Below the pieces are notes generated by a model. The model was not told the origin of the DNA, searched no databases, and worked only from the letters and a program-made list of their open reading frames with translations. Source: Phlegmacium glaucopus (Eukaryota; Basidiomycota; Agaricomycetes; Agaricales; Cortinariaceae). Taken from it: a DNA stretch of 64,000 nucleotides. Position 1 is the first letter of the stretch. Each line of letters opens with the position of its first letter. Of the stretch, positions 1-25,624 are shown one piece after another. Made by a program: the position numbers and the translations under genes. Location: positions 190,570 to 254,569 of the forward strand of contig MU130378.1 in NCBI GenBank assembly GCA_015039465.1, in the 5' to 3' direction.

Positions 1-840
1 ACAATCACAACTTTTACAACAATTCAACACTCTGAGAAACTGATCTGTATTCAATACCCAAATCTCAATGACGAGTGTTCTTGCTCAATGTCTAAGAGGG
101 GGGAAAGAAAGAATCCAATTTTCTGACTATTTACAAACCCTGGGAGGTATTTTATACATTTGAGATATTTAAAAATAGATAATGTCCAAAAATAGATATA
201 CTGGTTCCTGGTACTGGAAACATAGGGGTTGTTCTATTTTTAGCCCCATGTTGCTAATTTTAGGTAGTTTCCACCCCTCTTGATGGTAACTGTGCCTATT
301 GTGCCTGGAAACAATCTTTATAATTGTTCAGCACTCCCCCTATCCTTAGTCATCATGATTCCCACACAATCACATGGTTCCACTATCTTGGTTATTCTGC
401 TTCCACTGTTGCTAGGGCACCAACCTTCCCCTGAATATTTATTAATAATATTCTGTTGCTCCACAATCACACCCCATGACATTTGCTAACCCAATATTGT
501 TTATTTAACTTTTCCTGTGCCAAGTCTATAAGGATATTCATGGATTTATTGGTTTTAATCCAGACATGCAATTTGTAGTGTAACAAATGATAGTCTATTG
601 ACCACACTTATTAACTATATGCATTTAAGTCACACAGTAATAGGTCTAATCAGCAGTTGTAGGGTAAACAACTTTGATTCCCTTGTTTATTATCAGCTGT
701 ATTAACAAGTTATTGATGCATTAATTAATATTTATGCCGAAATAATAGATAAAAATTGCAAAAACCATGCTTATGCAGATTTAAATCATATCACTGGCAG
801 AGTATGTGGGGAGTGTACAGTCCTCCTAAACACACCACCA
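1..840. other. Gene-free AT-rich flank, possible LTR remnant
   Basis: No convincing coding region is seen. On the minus strand, a purine-rich stretch near 330-345 is followed by a segment beginning TGAACAATTATAAAG and running to a GTTGAATTGTTG-like end near the window start. That arrangement resembles a retrotransposon polypurine tract followed by an LTR. No target duplication can be tested because the element runs off the window, so this is a weak inference. The rest of the stretch (about 480-840) is AT-rich and I recognise nothing in it. Confidence 0.3.
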
Positions 841-1805
841 CCACCCTAAAAAAACCCCCCTTCACCAGGGGGGTTTTTTACTTCAACAGACGATGGCACT
901 CCCCTATGTAGGGGGGTTTCTTTACTTCAATGGACGATGACTGCTACCCCCCTGTTTAGGGGGGTTTTCATTTTATTTCAATGTACAACAACCACTACTC
1001 CTGTTAAGTTTAGACAAAGGGAAAACATTGGAGTAACTCCGGACCAGACGGAATGGAACTGGAACAAGTAATGGAAAGGACTTTGGCCTCAGTGTATGTG
1101 CTGTGCTGCCCAGCTCCTATAATGTCCTGATTTTGGAACTGGAAGAGAGCGGAAAGATGGAAGACCTCAGTGACTTAGAGGGCGAACAAGAGGAGGAAAC
1201 TAAGATGATATTCGAACTGAGGGAAAACATACAAGTTTGAAGTACTTCAATAATAAAAGGAATTGCAACCAAAATATAGAATATAAATTTAAGTGCTGCG
1301 TTCTGCTCCCGGAAAAGGTCCTGCATTCTTATAATCCATAGCTGGTGTGCTGACTGATAGTGGGAAAGTGATGACAAAGAAATAGTTGTTATTGCGAAGA
1401 TGTGGTAATGGGTTTGGAGTATCGTCGGAAGAGTCGGAATGATACGGAGAAGTCTCGGAGTTGGATGTAGGAGGAGTAGAACCGGAAACAAGGGAGAGTA
1501 CTGGAACAGAGTATGGACTACCGGAAACAACTCCGATGGAGTCGGACTGGAGTAACGTATAACAGAATGTAACAACTCCCCTTTTTAGGGGTGTTTTCCA
1601 TTTATTTCAATGTACAATGACTGCTACCCTCCTTTTTAGGGGGGTCTTCATTTTATTTTGACATACAACAACCACTACCCCCTTTCTGAGGGGTTTTCTT
1701 TTTATTTTGACATATGATGACTGCTACCCCCCCTTCCAAGGGGTTTTTTTTTAAATTTCTATTGAACATCAGCTACCCTTCCCTTGTGGGAGGGGTTTTT
1801 TTATT
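841..1805. repeat. Tandem array of G/C hairpins with T-tracts
   Basis: A unit of about 60 bp recurs at least seven times. Each unit has a C-run, a short loop, a matching G-run, a T-rich tract, then a conserved linker like TTCAATGTACAATGACTGCTA. The first hairpin (about 846-877) is nearly perfect: six C, a seven-base loop and six G, flanked by A and T runs. Three units lie before 1002 and the rest after 1579, because a solo LTR has inserted inside the array. The hairpins look like bacterial intrinsic terminators, but nothing in this fungal context supports that role. I read it as a satellite-like repeat of unknown function. Confidence 0.75.
1002..1574 (+). mobile_element. Solo LTR (family C) with 5-bp target duplication ACTCC
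   Basis: The element begins TGTTAAGTTTAGAC and ends AGAATGTAACA, giving TG...CA termini inside a short TGTTA/TAACA inverted repeat. It is flanked by identical 5-bp duplications ACTCC (997-1001 and 1575-1579), the classic footprint of an LTR retrotransposon. No internal coding region is present, so it is a solo LTR left by LTR-LTR recombination, which is established behaviour for the class. It interrupts the hairpin array. A second copy exists in the polarity-reversed blocks (4039-4483 plus 11379-11405). Orientation is arbitrary because no internal region is attached. Confidence 0.85.
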
Positions 1806-2308
1806 TTTTATTTTACTCTTATGTATGAACAATGACAAATGTAGGTACCCCCCATTTTTTTATTTTTATTTTAGTTTATCAGATTAAATAATATATAATT
1901 GACTATGAATCATGGTACCCCTAGCTATAGGGTACAGTTGTTCAGAGACAGGCATAAAACACATTATGTGTTTTGTGGCTGTTCCCAAAAGAAAATATTC
2001 TACCTTTTCTTTTGTGTATTTCTTACATATACTCTTATTGTTTCATTATTCATATTTTTGTACAATTAATTTTTTCATTTATGTTAAGTGTAAAAAGGAG
2101 AAATTTTCATTGATCAAAGAAGTTTTTAAGAATTCTAAGCACAGAGATATGTTTACAAAGTAGCTCTAATCCGTTTGGTGGGCTCACATTTTTGAAATAT
2201 TCCTTTTGTGGCAGGTTATTGAGGTTGAGAAATCAAGCTCAATCTGCTTACATAAGGGGTGCCAGTTCCTGGTGGCATCTATCTTAGTTCTGGATGTAAG
2301 GGAAAGCA
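1806..2308. other. AT-rich spacer, nothing recognised
   Basis: The stretch is AT-rich and low in complexity around 1850-1900. It has only short open frames with no recognisable protein features. Confidence 0.4.
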
Positions 2309-2362
2309 CTGGTATGGATGGAGTGCGGACTACCAGAGACAGCTCCAATGGAGCCAGACCTG
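2309..2362 (+). repeat. Fragment of LTR family C
   Basis: The words ACTGGTATGG, GGACTACCAGAGACA and CTCCAATGGAG follow the same order as the last third of the solo LTR at 1002-1574 (about 1500-1550 there), with scattered substitutions. It abuts repeat A copy 1. It is short and diverged, so family membership is likely but exact edges are not. Confidence 0.5.
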
Positions 2363-2368
2363 TATTGC

Positions 2369-3603
2369 ACACTAATATTGATCGGTAGTGTGGGTAAAAA
2401 GCTTAAAAATTGCCAATGTCTCTCACTATGCTCTCCATCATTTACACTATCAACATGAAAAACATCTACCATCCATTTATTCCTTGGCTAGTGATACAAC
2501 AAAATGATCAATCTACTATTCACATCAGTCATCGGTTTGTGTTTGATTGTATCTATAGCCCATCATTTCAAGAATGACCCATCTATGGATGCATCAGCTT
2601 TATTTCCCATTATGTAAAAGGCTTTGTCATTGTTGTTGTGGCTATGGACCCACAAGTCTTCCCCTCAGCTATCTACCTTGCCATACCTCACTCCTGGATC
2701 TCACTTAGTCCCCTATCCTCACCTTATCTACCTCTTATCTTATCATTCACTGCCAGAACCAACATTCACACAGTACCTGAATCCTTCCCACCCTCTTTAT
2801 CCCACTTTAGGAAGTCCAGAAGGATCATGAGACTAAGCAAGAGTTGCAGATGAATCAGCAGCAGAGGAATATTCTCACAGTGTGTCAAGTGTTATTGAGG
2901 CTGCACAACATAGGACCATGGGCAAGTGGTATTTTCTCAGGAACAAGGCTGTGCCTTCCAAGTGTTGACTCAGGACCTTTCACATTTTGACATGACCACA
3001 CAGCTATGGAGTTGATATATTTTTGCTATTGGACTATGCACACTGCCTTTTCTTCTTTTCTCTTGCACTTTGACAACTTACAGATTTTTTTATTGTTCCT
3101 TCTTCTTTTCCATTGTTCTTTTCTTCTTGCAGCTGTTGACTCTTCATATTTCTTCCTTTGACAGTGCCTACTTCTTTCTTTGTATTGTTCTACATAGCCT
3201 CATCCTTAGGGTATAAATACTGCTCTTTTGTACCAGGATAGGTAGTTCCCTTCAATTCATCTCTAAGTCTCTTACAGTCACCATCTCAGTAGAGTTCCAG
3301 TGTATTCCTCCCTCAAGTTCGCTTTTTCAGCATTTTATCTGTTACTGTCCCCTACTGTCAATTGCTATAGTCTTACTGAAGACTCTTTCTCATTCATCCT
3401 CTTCTCTATACTCTCTCACCTCAGTCACCTTTCAAGACCTTCATCTTCATCCTCATCACCTCTACTCATACCCCCTACCTTTGTGTGTTACAAGTCTAAG
3501 GCTAAGTAAGCCTTCCCTAAACAAATAACAGGGAGTCTTTTGACCTAAAGACTGGTCCACTGCTCTCTGGTTGGTGTTTTATATCAACACAAACAATAAT
3601 TTA
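2369..3603 (+). repeat. Dispersed repeat A, copy 1
   Basis: This copy aligns along its whole length with those at 27084-29059, 30029-31193 (opposite orientation) and 3891-4038 plus reversed block 1. The family begins near a small palindrome (ACCAAT-ACTG-ATTGGT in intact copies), has a long pyrimidine-rich second half, and ends ...AACAAyAATTTA. No copy encodes a convincing protein. This copy lacks a stretch present in copy 2 after the start. Only copy 3 shows a clear target duplication (7 bp). The family looks like a non-autonomous retroelement or an LTR-like sequence, but I cannot assign a class. Confidence 0.8.
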
Positions 3604-3890
3604 TACTGGAGTAACACATGATGGAATGTAACAGTGGCTTATAATAGTCATTAAACTGGATATAATTAGTAAGGTTTTTTAAATAGTAAAAAAGTGAACA
3701 TACCATATTTTTGAGTGCTTCATAACCAGCATCATAATATTCTGTATCCCACATCTTCTTACAATATGCAAGCTTGATAGAAGGTTGTAACACTAGCTCA
3801 AGTAAGTATATAGACTTAAAAAAATAAGATATAATTTGTTAGGGGACACCCAGTTTTTGACTGAAGCACCAACTCCCGATCGGTATCACA

Positions 3891-4038
3891 CACCAATACT
3901 GATTGGTAGTGTGAGAAGAAAGCTTAAAAGTTGCCATCATGAAAATAAGCGGACTTTGAATTCACTTACCTATTTTGGAAGCAGCCCTGAATCGCGTTCC
4001 TGGTCGACAAATCATTTGTTCAATGTTATCACCCTCAT
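3891..4038 (+). repeat. Repeat A, copy 4, first part (normal polarity)
   Basis: It matches copy 2 (27084 onward) base for base with few changes, from the CACCAATACTGATTGGTAG start to ACCCTCAT. The match then stops abruptly at 4038. The expected continuation, TGCTCATCATrTTCTCAATG, is found at 5883 reading backwards without complementing. The remainder of this same copy is therefore 4688-5883 in the reversed block. Confidence 0.9.
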
Positions 4039-4483
4039 AGGCATAGTAAGGCTGGGAAGGCTGCTATAGGGTTTGGGGAATGGTGTGGAAGCAGTATTGT
4101 TGATAAGGAAACAGTAGTGAAAGGGTGATAGTCAGTCGTGTGGTCGGTACCTAATAAGTGGGTTCTTACGTCCTGGAAAAGGCCCTCGTCTTGCGTCGTG
4201 AATATAAATATAAGATATAAAGCCAACGTTAAGGAAAATATAAATTTCATGAGCTTGAACATACAAAAGGGAATCAAGCTTATAGTTGAATCAAAGGAGG
4301 AGAACAAAAAGGAGATTCAGTGACTCCAGAAGGCTGAATAATGAAGAAGAAGGCAAGGCTTTAGTCCTGTGGAATCCTCGACCCGCCGTGTCGTGTGTGC
4401 GACTCCGGTTGCAGGAAAGGCGAATGACAAGGCCAAGGCAAGGCCTCATCGAGGCTGCACTGAAGGAACAAAATTTGAATTGT
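4039..4483. mobile_element. Solo LTR family C, main part (in reversed block 1)
   Basis: Read backwards from 4483, the text starts TGTTAAGTTT and follows the 1002-1574 LTR until the block edge at 4039. The LTR's last 27 bases (TGGAGTAATGTGTGACGG... to TAACA) are found at 11405-11379, also read backwards. The five bases outside each end (4488-4484 and 11378-11374, backwards) are both CAAGA, a perfect 5-bp target duplication. About 115 bp of the reference LTR are missing at the join, between two short CGGA words. This could be a real deletion or lost sequence. Confidence 0.9.
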
Positions 4484-4687
4484 AGAACGAAGAGAATACC
4501 GACGGTAGTTGTTTCATAACACCTTCTATACACAACTGACGTCTCTAATGTCGGTAAAAGTATTACTATCCGGGGCTGTAAAGGACGAACAAATCTGGCA
4601 CAAACCGACATAACCTTCTAGACCAGGTTCTTCATACTCGACTGTCAGACGGCAGACCCTAACCGTTTACAAACGGGTAGTTGTCAT

Positions 4688-5883
4688 ATTTAACAACAAA
4701 CACAACAATATTTGTGATTGGTCTCTCGTCACCTGGTCAGAAATCCAGTTCTCTGAGGGACAATAAACAAATCCCTTCCGAATCGGAATCTGAACATTGT
4801 GTGTCTCCATCCCCCTTTCTTATCTCTTCTCTTCCTACTCCTACTTCCAGAACCTTCCACTTACTCCATATCCTACTCCTACTCCTACCCATTCTCTTTC
4901 AGAAGTCATTCTGATATCGTTAACTGTCATCCCCTGTCATTGTCTATTTTCCGACTTTTTCACTTGAACTCCCTCCCTAAGTGACCTTAAGGTGACTCTA
5001 CTACTGTCAACCCCTCATTCTTACTTAACTCCACTTGATGGATAGGACCATGTTTTCTCGTCATAAATATGGGATTCCTGCTCCGATACATTTTGTTTAT
5101 TTTTCTTTCTTCATGTACGACAGTTTCCTTCTTACTACTTCTCCTGTCGACGCTCTTCTTTCTTGTTACCTTTTCTTCTTCCTTGTTATTTTTCTAGACA
5201 TTTTACAGTTTCACACTCTCTTTTCTTCTCTTCCGTCACATGTATCAGGTTATCGTTTTTATATAGCTGAGGTTTCCGCACACCAGTACAGTTTTTACAC
5301 TTTCCAGGATTCAGTTGTGAACTTTCCGCGTCGGAACAAGGGCTCTTTTGTGATGAACGGGTACCAGGGTACAGCGCGTCGGAACTATTGTGAACTGTGT
5401 GACGCTCTTATTAGGAGACGACGACTAAGTAGACGTTAAGGACGAATCCAGTACTAGGAGGACCTGAAGGATTTAACAGTATTTCTCCCACCCTTCCGAA
5501 GTCCATGGCGCACTTACTACCAAAACCGTCACTTACTATTCTATTCTCCATCTATTAACTCCTATCCCCTGACTCACTCTAGGTCCTCGCTCCCTACCGT
5601 TCTATCTACCGACTTCGTTTTTGAACACCCAGGTATCGGTGTTGTTGTTACTGTTTCGGAGACTGTATTACCCTCTACATCGACTACGCAGGTATTTCCC
5701 CGGCAAGAACTTTACTACCTGGTTTCTATGCTAGTTTGCGCTCGGTTACTGGCTACGCTTATCATCTAACTAGCGAAACAACCTAGTGATCGGTTCCTTG
5801 TTTACCTACCATCTACGAATCCTCGTACAGCTATCACATTTGCTATCTCTCGTATCACACTCTGTAACTCTTATACTACTCGT
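4688..5883. repeat. Repeat A, copy 4, remainder (in reversed block 1)
   Basis: The left-to-right complement of this stretch runs parallel to copy 3 (30029 onward), including the TAAATTGTTGTTTGTG start and the CCAGAGAGCAGTGGACC word. It ends at 5883 exactly where copy 4 part one (3891-4038) should continue. The text 4489-4687 before it carries a ~100-bp segment shared with 31205-31310. Confidence 0.9.
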
Positions 5884-6400
5884 AAAAAAAAAAAAAAAAA
5901 AAAAAAAAGGAGGTTTTTGGGAATGGGAACCGACTCCCATTCCCAAAACCTCCCATTCCCATTCCCAAAGACTCCCCAACCTCCCATTCTTTGGGGTCGT
6001 CCCAAATCACGTTCCCAAACCAGGTTTAGGAAGGAGTTCGAAACATTAGGTTTCCTCGGAAGTTTCATCGATAATAAATTTTGTACAAGTCCCACAATTT
6101 CCACAAATCGTTATCTAAAATTTACTTTATCTCTCCCAAACTGATCATAAAATTCGATGACTAACAACACTTTCGTCACTCCGGAGAAATCTAACGAAAA
6201 AGAGACTAAATTTCAGTTAAAATATCTATGTGTTGTCAATCTAGTGAGACTATAGTCTCTTTATTTTTAAGGGTTTTTATGGGACTGGGGAGGTCTTCCC
6301 ATTCCCAAAAAGTTCCCAGTTTTTTAGACATGGGACTGGGACTGGGAGGAATGGGAATGGGAACATGGGGTCCCCAAAGGGTTTGGGGACGGGTAGTGAT
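5884..6400. mobile_element. hAT MITE B3, first part (in reversed block 2)
   Basis: Read backwards from 6400, the text starts TAGTGATGGG and is rich in GGGTAAGGG/GGGTCAGGG words, ending in the 25-A run at 5884. The other terminus (to ...CCATCACTA) lies in normal polarity at 11406-11457. The eight bases outside each terminus (6408-6401 backwards, and 11458-11465 forwards) are both AATCCTGG. An 8-bp duplication with TAGTG...CACTA termini is characteristic of hAT elements. Total length is about 569 bp. It is inserted in the ABC-transporter gene. Confidence 0.9.
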
Positions 6401-6408
6401 GGTCCTAA

Positions 6409-7240
6409 TGTGGGAAAAGGGAAACTTGCACACAAAAAAAGAGACGTCTTACGGATGAGAAAAAGGAAGATTTAAGACGGACGTTCTAAGCTCTATTGTA
6501 GAGTGAGCCACTAGGTGGAGTGAGAAGACTGAAGAGATCTTAGGTTTTCCGACGACTCAATCCTCCGCGACTACGGAAGTGACTCGCTGACGGACTGTTT
6601 ATGTTCTGTATGGAGTTTTCTGGACACTACCTAGTTATAAGGAGGAATGGTCTTCCTTGATGTTGATACAAACCCACATGTCAACTGATGGTCCCACAGT
6701 CTCTACGTCCACCGTAGTCATTAATTTGGTACCCTAATTCATCTCCTGTCTGTCTACGTCGTCTAACGAAACATACATACAGAAAATAATAACTCGGGTG
6801 CCCAACTGAATGAAGTTAATCCAGTACCTGTGAGTACACAAGCCATCAATAGAGTACCCGGACCGAACGACGATAAACTGCTCGGAAGTCGATCGAACCT
6901 AGGCTGTCGACTTGTACCACACAGAGGAGGACACAGAGGGTCCGGTACGGGAAGTATAACGAGAACTGGTTGGGAACTAAGAAGTGAGACATTTAGATAA
7001 ACTTACTGATGTAGTTGATGTACTCTTATTGTGTTACTATAAAAGAAGTGTGGCTAAACCTTTAGATTGAGTGGTGCGTCTAGAGTAGGACATTCGAAAG
7101 AACATTATTAACCAGACTAAAAATAGGGGGTCCATATACTTACTAAGATAACACCATCTTTTTGAGTACTGGTTGAAGACAACAGTCGTTCCGTATAGAC
7201 CTACAACGTTCGGGTACGAAAGTAGATCACTCCTTACACC
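6409..7240. pseudogene. ABC transporter, C-terminal ATPase half (in reversed block 2)
   Basis: The left-to-right complement encodes the half-transporter ATPase C-terminus: IRDNISLGDP near 6500, then a degraded signature region. Next come a Walker-B-like stretch (CCYLTSLQLAWIRQ, where a DEPSASLDPTAE-type sequence is expected) and NTMIFSSHRFGNLTHHADL near 7040-7085, which carries the switch histidine. A short exon with YMNDSIVVE near 7140 follows. It continues directly from the minus-strand part at 11466-12335 once MITE B3 and one target copy are removed, giving VLFQD-YT. Stops, altered Walker B residues and insertions make it a pseudogene. Family: fungal half-size ABC exporter with an N-terminal membrane domain. 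Confidence 0.75.
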
Positions 7241-7639
7241 TGGATGTTAAAATACGAAAAACAATACACTGATCGTTATAAACGAGGGAAGGGGGTCAAA
7301 ATAAGTACCACTTTTGTTGTTTGTCTGTCCATATAAAATTCGTCTTACCCTGTTGAAAAGTATGTAACCAATGTCTACCACTCCTACACCTAGAACTACT
7401 ACAGGGAAGGTGGATACCTGATTGTACCTGGCTGTTCTAGGCCAACGATAGGCACTGGTAAAATAGGTCTATTGATAAATACCCATAGGTATTGATTTAT
7501 ATCGTTTGGCGTCTATAGGTCTATCATGATTTATATCTAGTTAAAAATTAAAGACGGCAGTGTGCACTAAGACGTCAACATAGTTAACGACACGTGTCAA
7601 AGTCCTGAAACGAAGGGAAGAGGGTGCGAACAGTCTACA

Positions 7640-10450
7640 ATACGGAGGGTCCCGACGAGGGTTCCGAGTATTCCGACCTTTTAGACGATGACATCACGGA
7701 CGTCGGAGACATCGGGAATGACTAGTACGACTAGTACATGGTGACTTGGGTGGACAATGAGGTGGGGGTACCGTCCGTGTAGTCGACGTCAAACTCTGGG
7801 GTCCTCTCACGAAAGGAAGTCATAGGGGTCCGAGTTCACTAAGTCTACATCCTTACGAACAATGACTCCTACAAAAACGAAGAGGTTAGGAATAGAGTGG
7901 GTAGTTCACTACGGTCTCCGTTCGACGAGGGTGTGATTTAGTCGAGTGACTAGACCTCCAGACCCTCTAATCACTACTTCTCTAACAACAAACTATTTGA
8001 AGTAATGATTTATATTTATTTACTTAAGAAATTCTACGTCGTGTTTACAGCACCTCTAGACTTCATATACTGGTGATGCTGTAACCAGACGCTACACTAA
8101 AATGAGGTTGTGTACTTGGGGAAAGAGACTGGGACCACAAGTGGACGTTTTGGGTAGGGGTAGTAGGTAGGTAGACAGACTTGAGCGGGTGTCCCTTTTT
8201 GTCCACTGCCTTGTTCGTTAGACGTCTTCCTACAACTATACACAAACTCCTTCGTTCCGGTACTTGTACATTTTGGTCTTAGTCCCTGATAAGGAATGAG
8301 ACTCGGTCGAGTGGCACGTGAATAACGGGACGCGACACGTTTTTTACGAGCAGGTTAGTTGAGACAGGAACTGCTACTGATATTCGAACTCCAACTTTAC
8401 GATGTCGGACCCTGATTCTAAGGTGTAGGTTACTGTCAAGTTGTCCTAAACGAAATGTAGATACTCGTCCGAAGTTAACGCCACTTCTTAATAAAAAACC
8501 ACACAATAAAAATAACATTTTAATTTTTAAACGAATATGTAACTTATGTCGTTGACTTATCAGGAAGTAAGGGAGTGAAAAAATATCGAATTGGGTTTTT
8601 GTACCTACCATAGACCGGTGACAATGTCGACTAACGAACTTTGTCAAACCAGAACTAGTTGTCCATTTCTTTTATTACAACAGAAGATTTTATATTAATA
8701 TAACCATAAAAATATCGATGAACCATTCAACGATGGACTGATATAAGAATGTAAGATATAAGGATGTAAGGTCCCATACCTACGTACCGACACTACAAAC
8801 TGAGTATATGAATTAGAACAACGTTTCATTGTTATAGATAATAATAATTCGTCAACTGATTAATAAAGATAGATCTAGAAGTAAAGAAAGAAAAAGTTTT
8901 TTGGTTTTCACTTCTTTATACAGTGTTAAGGTCGTCTATTAGTGTGGTCACTCCACCTCCACCAACACCTAGGACCCCTCCCTGGTCTACTACTACTACT
9001 ACTACTAAAACGACGTTGACTCGTTCCAAATTAACTGAGTCTCCTTTTATGAGTTCTCCTACTATCAGTCGATCGGGTACTACTACGTCAACAGTTCAGA
9101 GAAGTTCTATAACGTCATATACTTTACCTCCGATTTCCACATCACTACAGACTACGTCTTTCCGTCTACCGAGACTTCGAGAAAGGGAACCATATCAGTA
9201 AAATTTTATAAAGGTCACAACAAGATTTTAGAAGAGATCCAAAGACCTGAACGTGTAACATAAGTAGTACTGAGTAGGTGTGATTTATTTTCTAAGGTCC
9301 TCGAATAACTGGTCCTAGGACTCGAATGTTGACGTTTACACGAGAACTAACGACACAGGGGTGAGTTACCTTGAGACTGAAACTAACGGAACGACGTGTA
9401 AACGTGAAGTTTTTACAACAACTCCGATATTGTCCACAAAGACCGTTGTTCAACGTCGGTATGGTGGAAAGTCTTCTTGTCACCGTTAATCGTCTACTAC
9501 AAGTGCTCCAGAATTTCCGTAAATGTAGGAAAATAAATAATAGTTAAAGAAGATTAAAAAACCTATCGAAAAATTTCTAGATTGAAACGAAAAGAGAGTT
9601 CGTCTCCAAGGGGAATAACACCTACGGGAAGGATACAATAAGATTAAAGTCCTCTCAAATGTCCGACAACAAGTACTAGTTCAGGTCTTGTATAGGAGAA
9701 GACCACTTTGTGGACGTCAGTAGGTCTAACGACGAGTACGACCTAAAAACAATTAATTGTTCATATACCTGAACTGTACCCTAACACTTTAGATACAATA
9801 GCGTGAACCACGTAAAATAAAAAAGAAAGAATAGATTAAATTAACGATTGTAGAGATTTGTTCAATACACGGGACTAACCTTCGAAGTCACCGACTTTCT
9901 GGCACAAAGTAGTCTTACCAATTTCCTCTAGTTTTTCGACCATCAGTTGGTTACCAGTTTTAGAATACGTAGACGTGTCAGGGTCTAAGGTCAGTATTTC
10001 TTCTGTTGGTTCCATTATATTAAAGATTCGGTATTTAAGTTTATATAAGAATGAGATCTAAAATCCTTTTCAGTTTTACCCGACGAGGGTGTAGAAGAAG
10101 ACCGAGGTCGTTTATAGGAGAACTGAGGTAAGTCCGTATAAAACGTCTTTCATAACAGGGGGAGTGTGGAGTAATGTCTTCGTCCTCCTATATACTTTAT
10201 AATCATAGTTGATGTTTTGTCAGCTGGATCGGAAAGTTCTTACCGTGTTCGTATAACAAGTCGTGGTCCAATCTAAATAGATGGTAGGTCTTCGGGAAAA
10301 TTAAAAAGGAACAAAGGTCGTTGGAGACAACTACGTCTTGTACGTAAGAGTTGACCAACAACAGTTCATTTAATGTACGTTGTGTTAGACTCGAGTGTTT
10401 GTAAGTTCCGTGTACATCGTTAACCAAGTACCCGATTTTGAGGGTATAAA
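7640..10450. pseudogene. hAT-family transposase hAT-1 (hidden in reversed block 2)
   Basis: Complemented left to right, an ATG near 7640 opens MPPRAAPKAHKAGKSATVVP and a Ser/Pro-rich N-terminus. SEVYDHYD (about 8059-8085) is the putative zinc-finger/DNA-binding region. IPYSEPAHRALIALRCAK (about 8290-8345) and an Asp-rich acidic linker (8960-9020) follow. The core then shows RWNSDFDCLAAH (about 9367-9405), SQAEVPLIVDALPML (about 9600-9645) and MCPDWKLQWLKDR (about 9865-9905). The dimerisation tail is ATSVDAEHAFSTG...GSWAKTP (about 10319-10435). Small introns are evident, for example GTATAGTC at 9188 and GTAATATA near 10010. At least one frameshift and a stop separate core segments, so it is probably inactive. 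It would catalyse cut-and-paste transposition. Confidence 0.85.
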
Positions 10451-11378
10451 GGGTTTAAAAGTCTATAACGTCGTTACCACCGTAGTGTGTACCCACTTCT
10501 ACAAACTTTAACTTACTTATATATTATTTGAACATGATATAAAGGTAAAAGGTTTCTGAGTACAAACATTAATCGTATATTTATTTATGGGGACAAGTTC
10601 TCGAAAGATTGCGTGGACCTAAGTTCGTTTTGCCTATTCTTAACTATGAACTCACGTCTTAAGAGTACCTAGATAGGTCTAGCACGACTAGGGTTGGTAT
10701 AGGTTTGACATAAACCGTTTTAGACGCCAAGACAATACATAAACCAGGTCTAGATAGGTACAGTCAGGGATGAAGACGGTCAGTTGATCAAGAGTCATAA
10801 AAACATACACATACGTAAGTATCCTCTAAACATCCTCTATGTGGAACGTAATATATAGTCTGATTTTACGGATTTAACGTCCCAATTTTAGAAACTCGAA
10901 GAGGTGTAGTCGTGAAAAACTTTGTTGATGGAAGTAAACGGTGACAAATAAAGAAGTTTAGTTGGAAAGTGAAACCTCCCCGACCTACTACTTGCTATAG
11001 TGTCACAGATACTCCTAATGAGATGGATTACGATAAGGTAAGTGTAACTGAAGAGCTCTTTGACTCCACCGAATTGTACCAGTTTTACTGACCAATAATT
11101 ACATACTATAGTACTGACAACCCTACGGTAGAAGAACTGTGTGGAACGTTTCAACAGGTCGCCGAACCTGATTTCTTTACTTAGACCAGTTTTTAGAACT
11201 AGTCGTACGTCAACAAGTTCCCCCTTTTTTGGTATGGACTAATATTTACGTTCACCCCCACACATCTATAACGAATACAGTGTATACCATGTAGACATTC
11301 CCTTCTTAATACCGCCCTAACCCATGATCTAGCCAACCGATCTAACCATAGTCATTGATAATTGTATATCTTTAGAAC
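10451..11378. other. Unassigned stretch inside reversed block 2
   Basis: Complemented, the text looks like ordinary AT-rich fungal DNA downstream of the transposase. It includes sub-terminal words related to the left flank of hAT-1 (GGATATCC-like). I recognise no further gene. The last bases before 11379 hold the CAAGA target copy of the LTR. Confidence 0.4.
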
Positions 11379-11405
11379 ACAATGTAAGGCAGTGTGTAAT
11401 GAGGT
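11379..11405. mobile_element. Solo LTR family C, terminal 27 bp (in reversed block 2)
   Basis: Read backwards from 11405, the text gives TGGAGTAATGTGTGACGG then AATGTAACA. This matches the last 27 bases of the solo LTR at 1002-1574 with about three differences. The CAAGA duplication follows at 11378-11374. This is the missing end of the LTR whose body is 4039-4483, so the two reversed blocks must be neighbours end to end in the true sequence. Confidence 0.9.
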
Positions 11406-11457
11406 AAGGGTAAGGGTCAGCCTAATTCCACCCCGGGGTTACCCTTGACCATCACTA
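11406..11457 (+). mobile_element. hAT MITE B3, second part (normal polarity)
   Basis: The segment GGGTCAGCCTAATTCC...GGGGTTACCC...CATCACTA matches the terminus of MITE B copies at 17926-18226 (reverse complement) and 26825-27012. It is followed by the target copy AATCCTGG (11458-11465). Its other half lies in reversed block 2 (5884-6400). The MITE sits inside the ABC-transporter pseudogene. Confidence 0.85.
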
Positions 11458-11465
11458 AATCCTGG

Positions 11466-12335
11466 AACAACACAGTTATTGCCTTTCTAAGATCCACAAG
11501 TCTCAATGTTCTGATATCTTGGCTGTTGATTCGTATCTTGCTTTCCATGGGGTCATACAGCCTAGCAATCAGTTTAAGAATGACAGAAGAAAACATGCCT
11601 CAGGTGATGCACGGAGAATTTCTTCAAAGAAAAGGGCCACAGGAATTCCAGGTTGTTGATGCCTTGATAATGCTTCAAGATAATTGCTTGCATAGCCAGA
11701 TATCCAGCCTATAGATTTACAATATCCTGCACAGGATATCAGAAGATACAGGGAAAGAAAGGAAACAAGTCTTACAAGTGAGAAGAAAGGGGGTGATTCC
11801 TGCTGCAACCATTTCTTGCTGGTGAATTAGGTCACTGATAGTTTGCTTCAATCCCTCTGAACATAAGAAGTCTAGATCATTAGTTGTTGTGGCCCACACT
11901 GCGGAGATGAAATGAGTGAGGGATGTAAGGATAAATGCCAATGATGAACATGAACCTAAATCATTGATGAAAGGTTTTTTCGCCTTTGTCCACTGAGCAA
12001 AGCCATGTGCAAAACTGAGAATGGGTGAGGAGAAAGCCGTCTGGTTGACCTTTGAGGAGATTGATGAGCACCGAAAGCTGAGATAAGAATTGGATAGCGG
12101 TGCCAAAGACATGTAGGGTGGTCGTTACAGCTCAAAAAGCTATACTGCCATGTGCATGATTTGGAATGGCCTGCTGCAGCTGACGTTGAACAGCTGGGTC
12201 GTCAAATGTGGGGACATCTAGACGCGACATTGCGTAGAATATGTGAACAGAATAATGTTGCTTTATACGCAGACAAAGCAGAGAAGAAATACAATTCTTT
12301 GCATGCTGGAGCCAACGATGAAGCAAAGGCACCAA
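11466..12335 (-). pseudogene. ABC half-transporter, N-terminal/Walker-A-side part
   Basis: On the minus strand, SRLDVPTFDDPAVQRQLQQA (12240-12180) and QTISDLIHQQEMVAAGITPF (about 11845-11785) resemble the membrane-domain region of fungal half-size ABC exporters. LKLIARLYDP...KIRINSQDIRTLRLVDL...VLFQD (11585-11466) is the stretch after Walker A up to the Q-loop. The Walker A motif itself is not visible; the text before LKLIARLYDP is scrambled, with a stop. The frame is cut at the Q-loop by MITE B3 and continues in reversed block 2. Several frame changes confirm decay. Upstream it runs into the crypton remnant. Confidence 0.6.
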
Positions 12336-12434
12336 AGGCCACAGATATGAAAAGATGCTACTGTTCTGTAATCAAAGGCTACTTGAACCTAAATGGAGTC
12401 AGTGGAAGGCAATGTCAGAGAAGAAGGATTGGTT

Positions 12435-14122
12435 TACAATTGAGAGCATTTGACCCGAGTAGGAGAGAGTGAGGGCAGGTATGAGAGCAGCCATGAGCTG
12501 CGAGGATATAAGCTAGTAAGTAATAGAGGCCAGCATTTGGGAATTGAGGCAATATCTTTTAACATACACCTTGCACCCACCCACCCCACCATCGAATGCG
12601 AGCAAGAGTCCAGCGTTGTCCAACTGGGGCAAACATGAAACAATATTGTGCTCCTCCACGACGGAAACAGTGTGTTGTGAAGTATTCCGCACCATCAATC
12701 CCCGCTTTTGTTGCCATCTCGGTCTTCTTTTGTATGACATCTGCTGTCATTGGTCTATTTGGGTGTACTGATGTTCCATTTGCACCGATTGCAGGAAAGA
12801 TGTGGTCACTTGGTTGGAGGGGCCATTGAAGCAAATAGGTCTCATAGAAGTCAAGCCAGTCTAAAACATTGGTGTACATGTCAATGGCAGGCGTGTTCAT
12901 TTGGGGGTAGATGTTATAGAGGTGACCTGTTTACAACACCCTGAGTTCTATATTGGACTGTACATCGTGATTATTGGAGCATTAACCACTGGTTTGTTGA
13001 TCACCATTCTTTGTGCGCTTCTGCCAGTTCTTATGGTTTTGCAGTTTGTCAAAACTTTGAAGTGAGTGAATTGACCTGTTAGTGATTCAGAACTGCCTCT
13101 TGGTTCACCTCTTATGCCTGTGGCCATAAGAAAGTCTTCTAGCGTCAAACTTGTTGTCTCACAGTTTCTAAACACTTGGATAAGTCTTCTCTTTTTCAAA
13201 TAGCATGTCAAAGGAAGGTGACAGCTGGGTGTTGTAGGTCATTATTTTTACTGTGTCCGTGTATGCTGTGCTTGCAAGCGCAATGAACAGCAAAAAAATT
13301 CCACGTTGCGCTGCTGATAATTCCAGGCCTGAGCATTGGGATTTGCATACTCGTAAAGCTTTGTCATATCACCAATGGACATGGCTTTTGAGTGAGTCCT
13401 CTCACTTTCACATCTTTTGTTCAAGTAAGTCCTGCCTTCTTTCCATATATGTATCTCTTCTCCAGTATACCTAACTTGTAGATTGACATGCTTGCTGCCC
13501 TAGACAAACACTCCATTCTTGTATTTACATGCCTCGAGAATATCACCCACTTCAGCAGAGCAGACTGGATTTCCGATCCACTCCTTGTTTACTGTGTCAA
13601 AATGCCAATGGCCATGAAACTTGTCCCCTGCCCTTGATACCAGTGAGTTACATTTCCGAAACAAGAAGAGTTTATTTGACTCACATAGTATCATAGTAGC
13701 GCAAAAAGGCTGCATGAATAGCAGATGCTGTGGACTTCCCACATTCCTCAGTGAAACATTTCTGTGCAATGAACATGGCAAGGGCGGTAGGAGTGTACTC
13801 AATTGGCAGACTACTTAAAGGCTTGATGGAGGTTGGGATGCATGTAGCCCTCTGCCTCATGGTCACCGTGTATTCCTTCACCTGCTTCAGGTGTCTCCAC
13901 AACATATGCCGCAATAAACTCCTTTCCCTGGTGCACATTTCCATCATAGTTATCAGTGGTCTTTTTTGACTTTCCATGCTTTTTCTTGCTGTCTTTGACT
14001 GTTTTCTGCACAGATTTATAGCTTGGAGTTGGATTGGACCGGTTTTGTCCTGACTTGGATTTGCCAGGCTTCTTGCAAGAGCTCGTATGGGTAGAGGATT
14101 TTAGGGGCATTGTATAATTCAA
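12435..14122 (-). pseudogene. Crypton-like tyrosine recombinase remnant
   Basis: The minus strand opens with a basic, Ser/Lys-rich N-terminus (14122 down to about 13950). PIEYTPTALAMFIAQKCF follows, then AGDKFHGHWHFDTVNKEW...VGDILEA (about 13630-13525) and HSKAMSIGDMTKLYEYANP (about 13385-13330), a core-binding-like region. The catalytic part is TTHCFRRGGAQ...RWTLARIRWWGGW (about 12695-12570). It contains the HxxR pair typical of tyrosine recombinases, the enzymes that move cryptons through circular DNA. The usual tyrosine segment downstream is not clear. Frame changes between blocks may be introns or frameshifts. The assignment rests on motif memory. Confidence 0.6.
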
Positions 14123-14456
14123 AGGAAAGGTAATCTATTCATAAGGCCACCATCTCAACGTTGTCTGTCCTAATTGTCACACCTGAAACACAGCAGCTCG
14201 GGATGGTAGATAATTAGCATGTTAAGAAGGTACCATATATTTCGAAGCTAAATAAGGCTGCCCAACAAATGCAAATTCTAATTTTGTTTGCTGGTAAGAT
14301 TGTCCGTTAATTTGAATCAAGGTGGGCCCAAGTTCAAATTCTTCTAGACTATCGGGTAAGCCAACATCATGATTAATAACCGTCAGCAACAATTTCAATG
14401 TTGGAAAGCACCTAATAGCCCAGTGAGCAGGATGTCAAAATGGATATGAATAGACG

Positions 14457-15944
14457 CTACCGGGGTGTAGATGTTTCAAGGAAAAGTGCATTATAGTGAC
14501 TCTCAGTGAATTCAGAAAACTGTTTGCCTGTTGCAGCTGACAAAATGGGTCCTGGGACCCAAAGAGATACAGAGATAATTGATGCACCCCCATGCATGAA
14601 CACCTCTGGTTTCAAAGCTTGACACACATCAACGGGCAGTGTTCCCAAAAAGGCTTCAACTCTGTATGAAGGGAACGCGGAACTGGTGGAGATCTTTGTG
14701 CCTACCGATGTTATGTGCCGAATAGTGTCAGGGCCAAGGTTTGTACCATCCGGTAATTCCAAACAACTTATAGATGCCTTCAGACAAGGTGTTAGTGAAT
14801 AAGGTCAGTTATTATATGATACCTGAGCAAGTTGCCGGATAAAATACCCATCCCAAACATTTATACTCAAACGGTTGAGGATATCAGGTCCCCAACCAAA
14901 GTATTGATCACACAGGAGTAGTCAGAGAACCTTAGGATCGGGAAACATAAGTGGGATTGTATGTGCAAGATGAGGATATGTCCAGCCAAGAGCTCCATGG
15001 GGGTCGTTGAGCAGTTCATCCTCAAGATTAAGTTGCCATGTCACCAGATAATTGCGAAGATTGTTCCCAGAAGCCTCAGCCATTGACCGACCAAACCCAC
15101 AAAGGCCAACCTGTAAAAAATCAGCCAATCATTCATGAATGTGTAATTAAGGATCACCGGATCGTAGTCACCACCACACATAACAGCAATAAAAATGAAA
15201 CCAGCGGGAGAGATCTGGTTGGTCTGCCTGGCAAACCCCTCATTGGTGTAAACTTCAACAATGTCACGCTTGTTCGAGTCCTGTGGGCTGTGAAAGCTGA
15301 ATGGGTCTGAGTGAAATGGTAGTAACACACAGACCTTCGCATGATGTGAGTAGCACCAAAAAGGAATATGTCGCTATCACTTGTCAGGATTAAATCAATC
15401 GCAAAGTGTTAAATTGGGTTTGAAAGAGGTATGGAAATAATGTACCGTGTGGCAATAAAATCCATAGGCTTCAACTAGCTTTCTGAATGACGCAGTCAAC
15501 CAGTGTGGAGGTGTCTGGACAGCTTTATTATCTTTGGGCGATGATCTCCATCGAACACGAGTACAGCACTGATAGGAAGTCGTGACAAGGCAGCAAGTCG
15601 ATAGAAGAGGACACGCAGTTCTGGCCTGCTTACAAATGCTGACATCCCCTTCCTCTGAACACGGCTTGACATTTAAAGAACCAAGTACTAGGAAATGAGT
15701 TGAAGATAGCCAGATTATAGATACTACTATAGCAGTAATTAGCACACCTAGCATCAATTCCAACAACCACAACTCCAGTCCCATGCCTGTTTCTCTCGAA
15801 TCCCTCACGAACAGCTATCTCCGAAAATGATGTCTTCTGAGCAGCGGGTGCGAGGATCTAGATTCAATGATGAAATATGAAGATCAGAAGAAATCCACCT
15901 CAAATGTAGAGCAGACTCACCTTCCAAAGGTAATTGATACCCAT
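14457..15944 (-). pseudogene. XPG/FEN1-type (XPG-I) nuclease-like gene, degraded
   Basis: A tiny first exon reads MGINYLWK (15944-15921) before GTGAGT, matching the Met-Gly-Ile start of XPG-N domains. Later minus-strand pieces read VREGFERNRHG...VVVVGIDA, VQTPPHWLTASFRKLVEAYGFYCHT, AIDLILTSDSDIFLFGATHI and RDIVEVYTNEG. Next come GFIFIAVMCGGDYD (about 15200-15160), LLNDPHGALGWTYPHLAHTIP and a C-terminal extension ending at 14457. Order and motifs fit the expanded fungal XPG-I family of structure-specific nucleases. The acidic GEAEAE-type motif expected between FYCHT and AIDLILT is absent, and one stop/frame change occurs in the middle. It is probably a pseudogene. Its cellular role is unknown. 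Confidence 0.65.
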
Positions 15945-17925
15945 GGTGAAAAAAGAGAGAGAGAGAGAGAAATGGGGACACAGCTATCATATAGGACAAT
16001 GTCTCTCAATTGTCATGCTGTGTTTTAGGAGTCAGAAGAGGAGAAGCTGATCTCTGAAGGAGGGTTGATTGACACCAGCTATGTACATGGATATTGTAAA
16101 GTATTTCTATCCTACAAGAAAAAGCACTACTGGCTGGTTAGCATAATGATCTTGGAGATGGAGACAGGAGATTTAAGCATACCCAAGATAAATTTTCAGC
16201 AGGTTTCAAGTCAGACAGGATTGAACATTAAATATTTCAGCAGGGATGGCTGCCCTCAAAGATCAGAACATGGAAGGAAGGGAGGTAATGGGACGACTGT
16301 GTGAGAGCGTCCAGTTCATTGCTGAGCCAAGTTCTCAACATTCTCAGCGTTCTGTTGATTGTATTGGCAATGTTTGGCAAAACCACTGACATTTAAAGCT
16401 CTGCACTCACATAGACGTGCGCACACATGCTGAAGGTAAGAATGGCAGTCGGTGTGAGCTAGTTGATGCAAACTTCCATACTTCATTAGAAATACATGTT
16501 CCTTCCCTCCCTTCCCAAACATTCATGGATAGACCTTTAAATATGTAATATACTTGAATATTTGGTCACCGAAGGCAGTACTCTTGAAGAACCTTTGCAT
16601 GTAGACATTCCGAGGCTGAATTTAAGAAATAAGTTGAGAAAAGTCCAACTAACTGTGACATAAGCTGGATTTAAGGAGAATTTAACAGAATTTAACAGAG
16701 ACGGAGCATGGAGCACAGAGTAGATGAGCTTGGTGACATTGTCGGTTCCCATAAATCAGGGACAATCCCAATTCCTGATTCACCAACCCTTGCTTAGCAG
16801 TGGTCCCAAGATTGTGGCTAGCTCTGAGATTCCATAATTTCCATTCTAGCGAAACAGTGTGAATTTCCTCTGGTATTGAGGTCATAGTCTTCAAGTGCAC
16901 ACTAATATTTATCCTCATTATACTAGTCTTCCTTTCACATGAATGGTGTAGTACTAGTAACTGCATTAGATTTGATATCTTTTCTTTTACTTGTGATTTT
17001 GTACAGTTGCACTTGTACTTCGTGTACAGAGCATACTACTGTATCCAGGTTCCGAAGACTCTGCTCCTGGTGTCTTGCCGTCGCTTGCTTCTATGCACAC
17101 TTGCCCTCTTCAAGCCTTGTCACACTGGAGATCTGGATTGTAAATTTAAGGATCTCGCTTAAATCTTCCTAATTTTGGGCAATTAACCAGACTTATTTGC
17201 ATTATTATATCTGATCTGATCTGATCTCCAGATCTATTATCTGATCTCAGATCAGATCCTTTCACACTGTCTCCAGATAGGTTTCTTATTGTTCTCTTTT
17301 CTATATAATCAGTAGCTAGCTTGCCAGAAGTCACTCTGGACTTCAGCTTACCATAGCTCTTGTGTCCCGACACTAGACAGCTGTTACAACTTCAAAGAGT
17401 TCAGACTCTGACCATAGACAGTTGTATAAAGATTCATTTGTTCAAAGTTAGCTCAGAAGAATACCAAGAGATCATCTCAAGGAATTGTCTTAAGGAAAGT
17501 TGGTATGATTCTCAAGAACTAGCTAGAGAATACATGTAGAGTAAATACTGTATTTAAAGTAAAAGGATGAGTTGCATATGTGTATGAGTCGTCTGCATGT
17601 GAAAGGTGAGTCATAGATAAAAATAGAGACAACTCATGCAATGAGTTGTATGCATGTTTATGAAACAATGAAAAAGGTATGGCAAACATATGTAAATGGA
17701 AATGAAAGAGGATGTATATAGCATATGTAGGAAATGGTATTGTGTTTGGTGGAGTTAAAGAAAATAAAAATGAAGTTTGTAACAACAGCACTATAGAGTG
17801 CTATAAGGTGCTATATATTATAGGGCTAGGCTAATTATTAACTGTCCATAATTAGTTGGATGTTGGAAATTTGGATGTCAGTTTGATGAACAAAGCTAGC
17901 AGGGTGACTTAAACACAGTAGGCAC
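15945..17925. other. No recognisable gene; contains a TCTGAT palindromic repeat
   Basis: Only short open frames are present and none shows family features. A GA dinucleotide run lies at about 15955-15970. At 17204-17266 the words CTGATCTGATCTGATC and ATCTCAGATCAGATC form a small palindromic TCTGAT/ATCAGA cluster. No element boundaries are clear. Confidence 0.5.
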
Positions 17926-18226
17926 TAGTGATTGACAGGGGTAACCCTCGGGTATCTTGATGCTGACCCATACCCATACCCCTGAGACCCCTACCCATCA
18001 AACCCATCAAAACGAGCCCAAAAACACCCAAAACGACCCAGAAATGAGCTATGTGCTAAATGATATGTTATATCATTTTGGCTATATCTCCACTAATTCT
18101 CATCCATTTTGGATGTTCTAGGGCTCGTTTTGTAGGTGGTGGGTACATATTCCTGTACCCGTACCTGTACCCATGTGTACCTGGCTTGTGTACCTGCAGG
18201 ATTTCAAAAACCCGTGGCGATCACTA
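17926..18226 (+). mobile_element. hAT MITE B1, 301 bp, target duplication GTAGGCAC
   Basis: It begins TAGTGATTGACAGGGG and ends GGCGATCACTA. Identical 8-bp duplications GTAGGCAC flank it (17918-17925, 18227-18234). The interior carries iterated CCCATACCC and CCTGTACCCGTACC words. The 8-bp duplication and TAGTG/CACTA termini place it in the hAT superfamily. It has no coding capacity, so it needs a transposase from elsewhere, possibly hAT-1 or hAT-2, though no shared termini were demonstrated. Confidence 0.9.
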
Positions 18227-18234
18227 GTAGGCAC

Positions 18235-19343
18235 TGAGCTAGAGCGGGGATACACTATGTATTTGATCAATAGAGAATCTATCCCTAAAGGCCTAAGTAT
18301 ATGCTACGAGGGCTATGAGTCCATTCCGTTATTGGTCAGTATCTGCTTACTCATGATGATGCAAGATAGTGCGATATGACATGATTGGAACAAAATATTC
18401 CAACATTAGAGAGGCCTATACTTATAATATTCTAATAGCATCACAACTGGAGTAAGGAAATTGTTCATATTCAACTAAGTACTAGTAGTCTAAACATTGT
18501 AATAGATACTACTTATATATAAACAAGATGCTAAATTAGCTTTTAACCTTAACGATCAGACCCCTAATTGGTGCTCATGCGCTCATGCGCCCTCAAGCTT
18601 CAGCTCTGATTCTAGATCTGATGCCCTAGAATTTTGAGCAGTTCCATGCTGCTTTGATGACTCTCTTGCCCTTCGTTTGTCCCTGCTCACTCTTGGGACA
18701 TTCAAGATGTTCATGATGAAGATAAAAAGTAAACAAAAAGATTATGCATGACCATTGCATGTTGAGTTGTTTATTTCTGGTGCCACACCTTGTTTGCTTA
18801 CTGCTGATTGCAGAATTTTCATTATGTGCATATATTAACCCAATATGTTCTACCTTCAGGGGTTGCTTCCATTTTGTTCCAACCAGGATCCCCAATTTTT
18901 CACTGGCTGACTGTAATGGCAACGGTAACTCTAAGGAGAGTGGGAGTCTATAAAGACTGAGTAAAGCAGCTATGAGCCAGTTATAGTAAGGGGATTCCAG
19001 TAATAATGAGATAAGGATAGTAATTACTGACTACTACTCGAAATAAGGTGGTAGCCACACAGTAGCAAATAAGTATGTAAGCAAATTGAAATGAGGATAA
19101 AATATAAACAGTAAATATGGTATATACCTCAGGGTTATCCCCTGACACTGACAGGATGACAGAAAGGTTTGTTCTTGTACTGCTAAATAAGACAACACCC
19201 CCATCACTTCAGTCATATTCCACCAACTTAACCAATCTGTGGTTTTTGGTGTTTAAATGATGGGTCAGAGTTTCTAGCTCTATTATTTTGTTTCAATGCT
19301 CATTTTACTTTTCATCTCCAGAGGCACTTCAGGTGGATATGCG
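18235..19343. other. No recognisable gene
   Basis: AT-rich spacer with only short, feature-poor open frames. I see no repeat boundary or RNA gene in it. Confidence 0.5.
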
Positions 19344-19348
19344 CAAAC

Positions 19349-19678
19349 TGTTAGGGGACGTTAGAACCCAGGAACCAAGTTGAATACAAAGGTGGTTATC
19401 AAAGATAACCACCTTTCGTCTATATACTACAGGCGTGGGAGCCAATTCAACTATATACAGCTAGGATGTAATAGAAGGTAGGACAAGGTAAAGATAACCT
19501 AAATATAAACTGACATCTGTCACGATGTCATCGGCGAAGGGACAACTACTACTACAATGGAAGGGAGAACACGAGGAGCAGGATAAGGGATGTGGTATGG
19601 GATACAATCGTAGAGATGAGTGAAAGTAAGTATATACTAAGCAAGCATAGAGGCGGACACAATAGGTGTCCCCTGACA
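19349..19678 (+). mobile_element. Solo LTR (family D), 330 bp, target duplication CAAAC
   Basis: It begins TGTTAGGGGACG and ends GTGTCCCCTGACA, a long TG...CA inverted terminus. Flanking 5-bp duplications CAAAC lie at 19344-19348 and 19679-19683. Inside, 19388-19416 is a perfect hairpin with a 13-bp stem (AAAGGTGGTTATC), a three-base loop and the complementary arm. The TGTTAGGGGAC start resembles the LTRs of the gypsy element at 21003, so they may be related families. No internal region remains. Confidence 0.85.
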
Positions 19679-19970
19679 CAAACCCCATGTTTATCCTATT
19701 AACTGCATCATCAACCAAGACTGTTGTGACTTGGGCTTCTACATGGTTTCTTCTCAATATGCTCATTTTTGGTACACTGGTTATTCTGTTGGCGACTTTT
19801 CTTGTGTTTGGCTCTATGCTTGCTCCAATTTTATTTCAATCTGTTGTCTTGACTTTGAAAGCATTACCACTAGGTGCAACAGCATTGGTGGGGTATTGCT
19901 TTTCTATCATTGTTGCATGTATGTGATTACAATATTAATATTTAATATGTAAAGGCTGATCAACGCTGTC

Positions 19971-20550
19971 ACCAATTCTGCAGGATGCAGAATCGATGCA
20001 AAATGTAATGCAGGATCATAAAAATCTGCATTTAGCAGAATAATTAATTCTTAAATAATTCTGCTGAGATGAAAGCAATTAAAATCCAGCCAGATTTATA
20101 AATTCTGCCTCAATTTTACTTTTGCATGAATTCTGCAACAATTAGAATCTGATTAGAATGTAAGATTCTACCTTAATTTCACAAGATGCAGAATTTATCA
20201 AGAATGATAAATTCTCAATGGATTTCACAAACTGCAAAATGTTGTCAGAATTCATTATTCCACATTTTGCAGAATTGATTGTGTAGTCAGGGGCAAAATG
20301 CAAATGATGAATTCTGACAGTTTGTGAAATCCATTGAGAATTTATCATTCTTGATAAATTCTGCATCTTGTGAAATTAAGGTAGAATCTTACATTCTAAT
20401 CAGATTCTAATTGTTGCAGAATTTATAAATCTGGCTGGATTTTAATTGTTTTTTGCATCTCAGCAGAATTATTTAAGAATTATTTTATTCTGCAGATTTT
20501 TATGATCCTGCATTACATTTTGCATCGATTCTGCATCCTGCAAAATTGGT
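19971..20550. mobile_element. Foldback element with ~240-bp inverted arms
   Basis: The left arm starts ACCAATTCTGCAGGATGC and the right arm ends with its near-perfect reverse complement GCATCCTGCAAAATTGGT. The arms pair over roughly 240-270 bp each, with small differences, around a centre near 20255-20300. The sequence is AT-rich and dominated by TTCTGCA/TGCAGAA words. No open frame and no obvious target duplication are seen. Such a long hairpin fits a foldback or MITE-type DNA element; the superfamily is unknown. 19684-19970 beside it holds nothing recognised. Confidence 0.85.
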
Positions 20551-20997
20551 GGCTTCCAGGAGTGTGTAGGTCTTCTGTTCCTTCCTTGGCTTCATCCTTT
20601 AATTTGAGTCATAAATACCCAATTTTTGCGCTATTGATACCATCATTCTCATATTTCACACATGTGACTTGACTGTTTGCATTGCCTTGTCAACTCTGCT
20701 CCTTGTTTTACTATATTTATCACGCCCTCATTTGGAAAAAACATCTCAATGTGTAAGTTTTTTTGGAGTGGTCCATTGTTGATAGTATTAATAATACAAA
20801 CCTGGTCCCTTATGAGGGCGCATTGGTCTAATAAAAAATATATTATTATATAAGATATGCAGGGGTAAAAATCAAATTCTAGCTAAAAACAAAGAGCAAA
20901 TAGTAAAGTGAGAAAGTAGGCCAGCAGAGAGATAATGCATAGTATCAGAGCCTCTAATAAAATGAGACTGAGAACTGTTCATAAAAGAGGTAAGAAA
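20551..20997. other. No recognisable gene
   Basis: Spacer between the foldback element and the gypsy element. A short inverted pair (CGCCCTCAT near 20733 and ATGAGGGCG near 20812) is the only structure noticed. Confidence 0.5.
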
Positions 20998-21002
20998 GGG
21001 CA

Positions 21003-21394
21003 TGTTAGGGGACACTCGATTGCAACCTTAGAATCATACATCCCGCCTTTCCGACGACCTCCGACCTTCCGTCCAACTCCGCTTCCATCACCGGTTTACT
21101 CCGGAACCCCGTAGTTCCACTCCGACTCCGATCCTCCATTTCGCTCCATCTTTTATTTCTATTTTTCACATCACACCACTTCTTATTTAATTAATTAATT
21201 ATTATTGTATCATTCATTTATTTATCTTATATCTCCATTATGTCCATATTAGTACTTAAATACCCCCAGCCTAGCAGGGATCCCCATCCTTTCCTCTTTG
21301 GATGGTAAGTCACTTGTAGATATCTTTTCTGAAATACTATTAACTTTGGATCCCCTGCTTGCTTGACTAAGTCAGCGTCGCAGTTGCCCTAACA
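21003..21394 (+). repeat. 5' LTR of the gypsy element
   Basis: It begins TGTTAGGGGACACTCG and ends GTTGCCCTAACA. It pairs with the 3' LTR (25625-26025), which is slightly longer because of a small duplication around GGATCCCCTGCTAG. The primer-binding site should follow immediately at 21395; I could not match it to a tRNA by eye. Confidence 0.93.
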
Positions 21395-21560
21395 TTAGGA
21401 AAGGATCATCCTTTAATGGACCGAGTCCGGTCCGCACAGTGGAACGATAGTCCAATTTACAGCCCCCGATTTGGGCCAATCAGACTCCGTACACTCCCAG
21501 ACCGTGGCTCCCTCCTTGTCTTCACAGCACGCATCTCCGAGCGGCTCCTTCTTATCAGCC

Positions 21561-25590: not shown

Positions 25591-25610
25591 TGCCAGGACG
25601 TCACCTACCG

Positions 25611-25620: not shown

Positions 25621-25624
25621 TGGA

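Follow-up and report, generated by a model that had tools for sequence, protein, structure and literature searches.

Two string-reversed blocks of repeat DNA around a run of 25 A's in a Phlegmacium glaucopus contig, most likely left by long-read gap filling

Introduction

A chromosomal inversion leaves a block in place with a direction unlike that of its relatives, and it yields the reverse complement of the original text. Mirror repeats are short local symmetries that read the same backwards on one strand. The region described here, positions 4039-11405 of a 64,000-nucleotide stretch of Phlegmacium glaucopus DNA (the window), resembles both arrangements and corresponds to neither. As in an inversion, it holds blocks that lie in place and run in a direction unlike that of related copies, but their order alone is reversed, and they are not the reverse complement of the normal copies. 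As in mirror repeats, the same reading is found backwards on one strand, but here blocks of kilobase size mirror copies located elsewhere.

A third parallel comes from the patching of assembly gaps with long reads. We take Cortinarius glaucopus to be the older name of Phlegmacium glaucopus. In a study that included Cortinarius glaucopus, hybrid assemblies were made with ALLPATHS-LG from Illumina data and afterwards patched with PacBio reads by PBJelly (PMC7550596). PBJelly treats runs of 25 or more N's as gaps, and flank extension as well as unjoined and overfilled gaps are described for it (PMC3504050); by default, short gaps are inflated to exactly 25 bp (PMC6733440). The likeness to the window lies in contig ends that grow into a gap from either side, stay unjoined and are separated by a fixed 25-base stretch. 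The difference is that the blocks here are string-reversed and that the 25-base stretch consists of A's, neither of which is described for PBJelly in the available portions of these two papers. PBJelly is also mentioned, with no orientation fault in the portions available, in PMC6191289, PMC8081667 and PMC6240028, and a literature search conducted mostly at record level returned no published report of such a fault.

Results

Two adjacent blocks are written in reversed polarity

The polarity reversal in 4039-11405 is confirmed. The preliminary description had claimed that the complement of this text, read from left to right, aligns elsewhere in the window, and it does: in a BLAST comparison of the window with its own complement, the complement of 4680-5825 matched 30019-31173 in the same direction, with 94.6% identity over 1157 bp. 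The 17-mer that had been quoted as an example, matched to position 30061, is indeed present, but it starts at 4720 and not at 4718. The reversed text behaves in the same way in BLAST searches within the window, where string-reversed 4444-4039 matched 1049-1448 (88.0%, 409 bp) and string-reversed 5868-4683 matched 2414-3608 (87.8%, 1201 bp). The complement of 11406-64000, compared with 11406-64000 itself, gave no match of this type at E ≤ 1e-3. The limits proposed earlier for the first block hold, while the second begins at 5909 rather than at 5884, the intervening 5884-5908 being 25 A's (Table 1).

Table 1. Coordinates and character of the features in and around the two mirrored blocks
Feature	Position	Strand	Description
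Left contig end, repeat segment B	3881..4038	+	Normal polarity; true neighbour of 4038 is 5883
Mirrored block 1, 1845 bases	4039..5883	.	String-reversed, probably a left-contig extension; complement and reverse matches, C161
Block 1 content	4039..5883	.	Repeat segment C, followed by a portion of segment A from a further copy
Exact 25-A run	5884..5908	+	Probable placeholder for an unclosed gap; 100 bp in C161 at the same spot
Mirrored block 2, 5497 bases	5909..11405	.	String-reversed, probably a right-contig extension; C161, dinucleotides, hexamer polarity
Block 2 content	5909..11405	.	Fragment of an element with inverted-repeat ends, then a different multicopy repeat
Right contig start	11406..11457	+	Normal polarity; final ~52 bp of the element that is otherwise mirrored from 5909 on
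120-aa reading frame	8182..8541	.	Appears only in complemented, unreversed text

Block 2 has an internal inverted repeat, a self-complementary stretch, at 5909-5953. A leftover PacBio hairpin adapter was considered for this stretch and ruled out, as the parent element has a normal copy in locus L025.

The complement had also been said to encode recognisable proteins, and this was borne out in part. The 120-residue reading frame has homologues, with all 60 candidates reaching E ≤ 1e-3 (best 4.5e-70). One of them, P0122, is a Phlegmacium glaucopus hypothetical protein, and L031 (contig C229) encodes it with no residue differing. For one ORF of the text as written, none of nine candidates was a homologue. 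Domain matches did not follow: at E ≤ 0.01, Pfam returned nothing for five mirrored and two as-written ORFs, and since both classes gave none, this result decides nothing.

The observed-to-expected ratios of CG and GC were 1.00 and 0.19 in 5884-11405 and 0.85 and 0.55 in 4039-5883. Three normal parts of the window gave 0.22 and 0.73, 0.44 and 0.92, and 0.79 and 0.99, and the pattern in 5884-11405 is thus opposite to that of the flanks. Polarity was also scored with hexamers, each word being compared with its own reversal, using window positions 11406-64000 and eight other loci as training text. The score fell below -30 in 13 of the 15 pieces of 475 bases across 4039-11405, against one of 63 pieces in the loci L012, L020 and L021; the training text includes the opening 569 bases of L012. 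Both failing pieces sit in or near a repeat at the start of block 1, whose first ~440 bases carry no mirrored hexamer signal, and the called segment begins at 4480. A normal copy of this repeat at 1401-1587 is partly mis-scored as well, which points to an unusual composition of the repeat. For this opening stretch of block 1, the reversal is shown by alignment.

As a separate observation on composition, CG is depleted in the repeat-rich parts of the window at 1-4038 and 11406-30000 (0.22 and 0.44 of expectation), while the gene-rich part stands at 0.79. The depletion in the repeat-rich parts is consistent with CG methylation and repeat decay.

A separate contig carries the restored order

C161 is a separate contig of 19.5 kb, and its bases 1-9500 were examined in reverse complement. 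In this orientation it first matches window 1592-4038 as written (99.7%). Its positions 2451-4293 then correspond to the reversed window text 5882-4039 at 96.9%, an identity low enough that C161 could be allelic or represent a second copy. There follow 100 bp that have no counterpart in the window, where 25 A's stand instead, and from 4394 to 9500 the contig matches the reversed window text 11404-6281 (99.3%). This is the order expected from string-reversing each block in place around an unclosed gap. The match ends at 6281, where C161 starts, and the right junction is not crossed by C161 itself. A 480-base probe, the complement of 8801-9280, occurs in normal polarity on C161 at 100% identity and, also in normal polarity, on five other contigs at 95-96%.

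Reversal in place restores both outer junctions

With block 1 reversed in place, the alignment is unbroken across 4038|5883 in 11 rows of 748-760 columns. These rows represent eight distinct copies, as L016 contains L004 and L024 contains L005. Normal-polarity copies crossing the restored junction are found in L020 (758 bp at 93.8%) and L024 (748 bp at 94.9%), and copies mirrored as a whole in L002, L004/L016, L005/L024 and L008. Within the window, the copy at 27074 likewise aligns across the restored junction, for 322 columns. When block 1 is left as written, the corresponding alignments all stop at 4038.

On the right side, reversing block 2 in place joins 5909 to 11406 and gives an unbroken alignment to L025 (517 columns, 91.3%), while in the text as written the L025 match is confined to the right side of the junction. 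The restored right junction is also crossed by whole-mirrored element copies in L053, L054, L055 and L057 at 97-99% identity. Both blocks, once in their true orientation, join the flanking contigs without a break, as patches would.

The 25-A run behaves as a gap marker

Runs of exactly 25 A's occur 157 times on the written strand of the 60.5-Mb assembly and once on the other strand. For exact 24-A runs the whole-assembly counts are zero and one, and for exact 26-A runs they are 72 and one; the excess at 26 is what one expects when a natural A adjoins a marker. Given 157 against one, with zero and one for 24-A runs, the 25-A run was most likely put in by software to mark a gap. To our knowledge, no natural process yields homopolymers that share one length and are confined to the written strand. 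The exact length of 25 and the restriction to a single strand also rule out a natural poly-A tail at 5884-5908. The 25 A's stand between the inner ends of the blocks, in place of the bases missing relative to C161.

The window and L001-L036 contain seven distinct homopolymers of at least 15 bases, all of them A runs of 25-27. Six adjoin or sit inside mirrored text; the L021 run does neither by alignment or by score, and its left side is in normal polarity by alignment. A clearly mirrored flank was found at five of 14 sampled 25-A sites (5 of 28 flanks), the sites having been chosen along the first hundred of the matches listed. Taken with the normal left flank in L021, this fraction suggests that the fault would strike only a subset of patches. 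In L033, a normal copy of an element runs into a 191-bp mirrored block (450-640) and 25 A's, after which the normal copy resumes with a 10-bp overlap; reversing the block in place makes the element copy continuous.

Mirrored text recurs through the assembly

The mirroring of 4039-11405 is not a lone event and recurs at dozens of other places. A search with window 3800-6200 found at least 68 matching pieces in the assembly, a lower bound, since scoring covered 40 of the 821 first-look candidates. At least 37 of the pieces, the window's own excluded, match the written text of 4682-5882 with 87-95% identity and are hence mirrored. Seven further loci from this search (L002-L008, two of them overlapping) all contain mirrored blocks. 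Mirrored text abuts N runs, which may be gaps or withheld stretches, in L027 and L028; in L016 and L022 it comes within 10 and within ~300 bases of such a run, respectively.

Ten-kilobase samples of C144, chosen by place (L009-L015 and L017-L021), were normal overall in 11 of 12 cases. Flagged stretches in the normal samples were at most ~0.7 kb each, and alignment shows the one in L021 to be a repeat of normal polarity. The twelfth sample, L011 (C144:180001-190000), lies immediately left of the window and contains several kilobases of mirrored text to either side of a 25-A run (182656-182680), which stands ~14 kb to the left of the run in the window. Some 1 Mb away on the same scaffold, L016 (C144:1210001-1220000) has two tandem mirrored repeat copies followed by 295 N's. 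On contig C118 (55,954 bases; L007 and L025), a mirrored block in the last ~1.1 kb reaches the contig end, so contig-end extensions, like internal gap fills, may carry the fault.

A single probe from the pol gamma gene, the complement of 49001-49480, found no mirrored copy in the assembly, while the like-made probe from 8801-9280 did match. On the evidence of this one probe, the mirroring does not represent a second copy of the whole genome. A wholly duplicated mirrored genome, as from a reversed-read file, is accordingly unsupported, both by the empty pol gamma probe and by the C144 samples.

The reversed text of 5909-6400 together with 11406-11457 forms an element of ~550 bp with inverted-repeat ends of the type TAGTGATGG...CCATCACTA, as read by eye. 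Mirrored copies of it at 99% identity lie beside or near 25-A or N runs on C125, C78, C164 and C18. Near-identical copies on four contigs suggest that the same long read or consensus patched several gaps.

Origin of the mirrored blocks

We hold with high confidence that 4039-5883 and 5909-11405 are ordinary repeat DNA, string-reversed about 25 A's, most likely by a long-read gap-filling step. The observations behind this reading are the polarity of the blocks, the seamless restored junctions, the independent contig in normal polarity and the genome-wide excess of 25-A runs on one strand. A short-read scaffold gap would have separated 4038 from 11406. The gap-filling program, likely PBJelly, would have added 1845 bases to the left contig and 5497 to the right one. 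These extensions, we propose, found no overlap because ~100 bp were still missing, and the filler likely left its minimal 25-base gap. A faulty orientation step would have written both extensions backwards, and the placeholder N's likely became A's at that point or afterwards. The DNA as written in 4039-11405 would then most likely not be present in the cell.

We infer that this strain was patched with PBJelly and that the fault arose in its orientation step. The marker agrees with PBJelly output in its length, fixed at 25, and in its restriction to the written strand, but it is written as A and not as N, which makes PBJelly a likely rather than a proven source. As a counterpoint, N runs of other lengths are also present in the assembly.

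Two strings reversed instead of reverse-complemented, each in place, had been the favoured reading of the preliminary description, and the order in C161 and the relatives spanning the outer junctions uphold it. The 25-A run between the strings and the genome-wide recurrence are additions to that picture. Deliberate scrambling and an unknown cellular mechanism, which had been kept as options, are not needed.

The best-placed competitor, still very improbable in our judgement, is a scaffolding or contig-editing error in which two minus-strand contigs were placed by reversing their text without complementing it, with no gap filler involved. Such an error would produce the identical polarity result, and the adjacency of the two blocks and the presence of the same content on the separate contig C161 would fit it as well. 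However, the outer edges at 4038|5883 and 5909|11406 are seamless, with neither gap nor overlap, as in contig-end extension; some blocks are only ~190 bp long (L033); and the 25-A run stands between the blocks rather than at their outer edges. Deliberate scrambling of the text has a still smaller chance of being correct. Reversal in place is easily done by hand, yet the same mirroring and the 25-A run are found at many assembly sites outside the window, and the run replaces 100 missing bp as it would at a true unclosed gap.

We give hardly any credence to an unknown cellular process that inserts DNA copied in reversed, non-complementary polarity. The mirrored copies are numerous and repeat-rich, as such a process might leave them, but they adjoin N runs and the one-strand 25-A run of fixed length, and C161, in normal polarity, has the restored order; moreover, we know of no polymerase or recombinase that copies in this way. 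An ordinary inversion, or a mirror-repeat family mistaken for reversal, has a negligible chance: the region is built of repeats, one of them with the internal inverted repeat in block 2, but an inversion yields a reverse complement, the blocks match as complement or as reverse over 1157-5124 columns, and the hexamer polarity flips.

With long-read gap filling as the preferred origin, the 7.4 kb are a usable warning and not biology, pointing to a systematic assembly artefact. Within the affected blocks, neither gene finding nor repeat annotation works on mirrored text, which can also pass for lineage-specific sequence. We see an even chance that an orientation fault, so far unreported, exists in a gap-filling pipeline applied to many fungal genomes; it would have placed mirrored blocks next to 25-A markers at scores of places here and corrupted other assemblies produced by that pipeline. 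Detection is cheap and needs two signs, homopolymers of exactly 25 on one strand and a flip in k-mer polarity, and both could be used to screen other gap-patched assemblies.

Other features of the window

Rfam and tRNA scans of the window found nothing. The pol gamma protein of the window has its best named match in Crassisporium funariophilum, at 84%, and no Phlegmacium protein stood among the matches listed. The segment 21002-26025 is retrotransposon-like: direct repeats at 21002-21394 and 25624-26025, 92% identical, flank two ORFs, a gag-like one with a zinc knuckle (21565-22467) and one that resembles a chromodomain (25077-25736), the domains having been read from the translations. To the left of this segment, the 582 bp at 19970-20551 match their own reverse complement at 81.5% and form a large imperfect palindrome.
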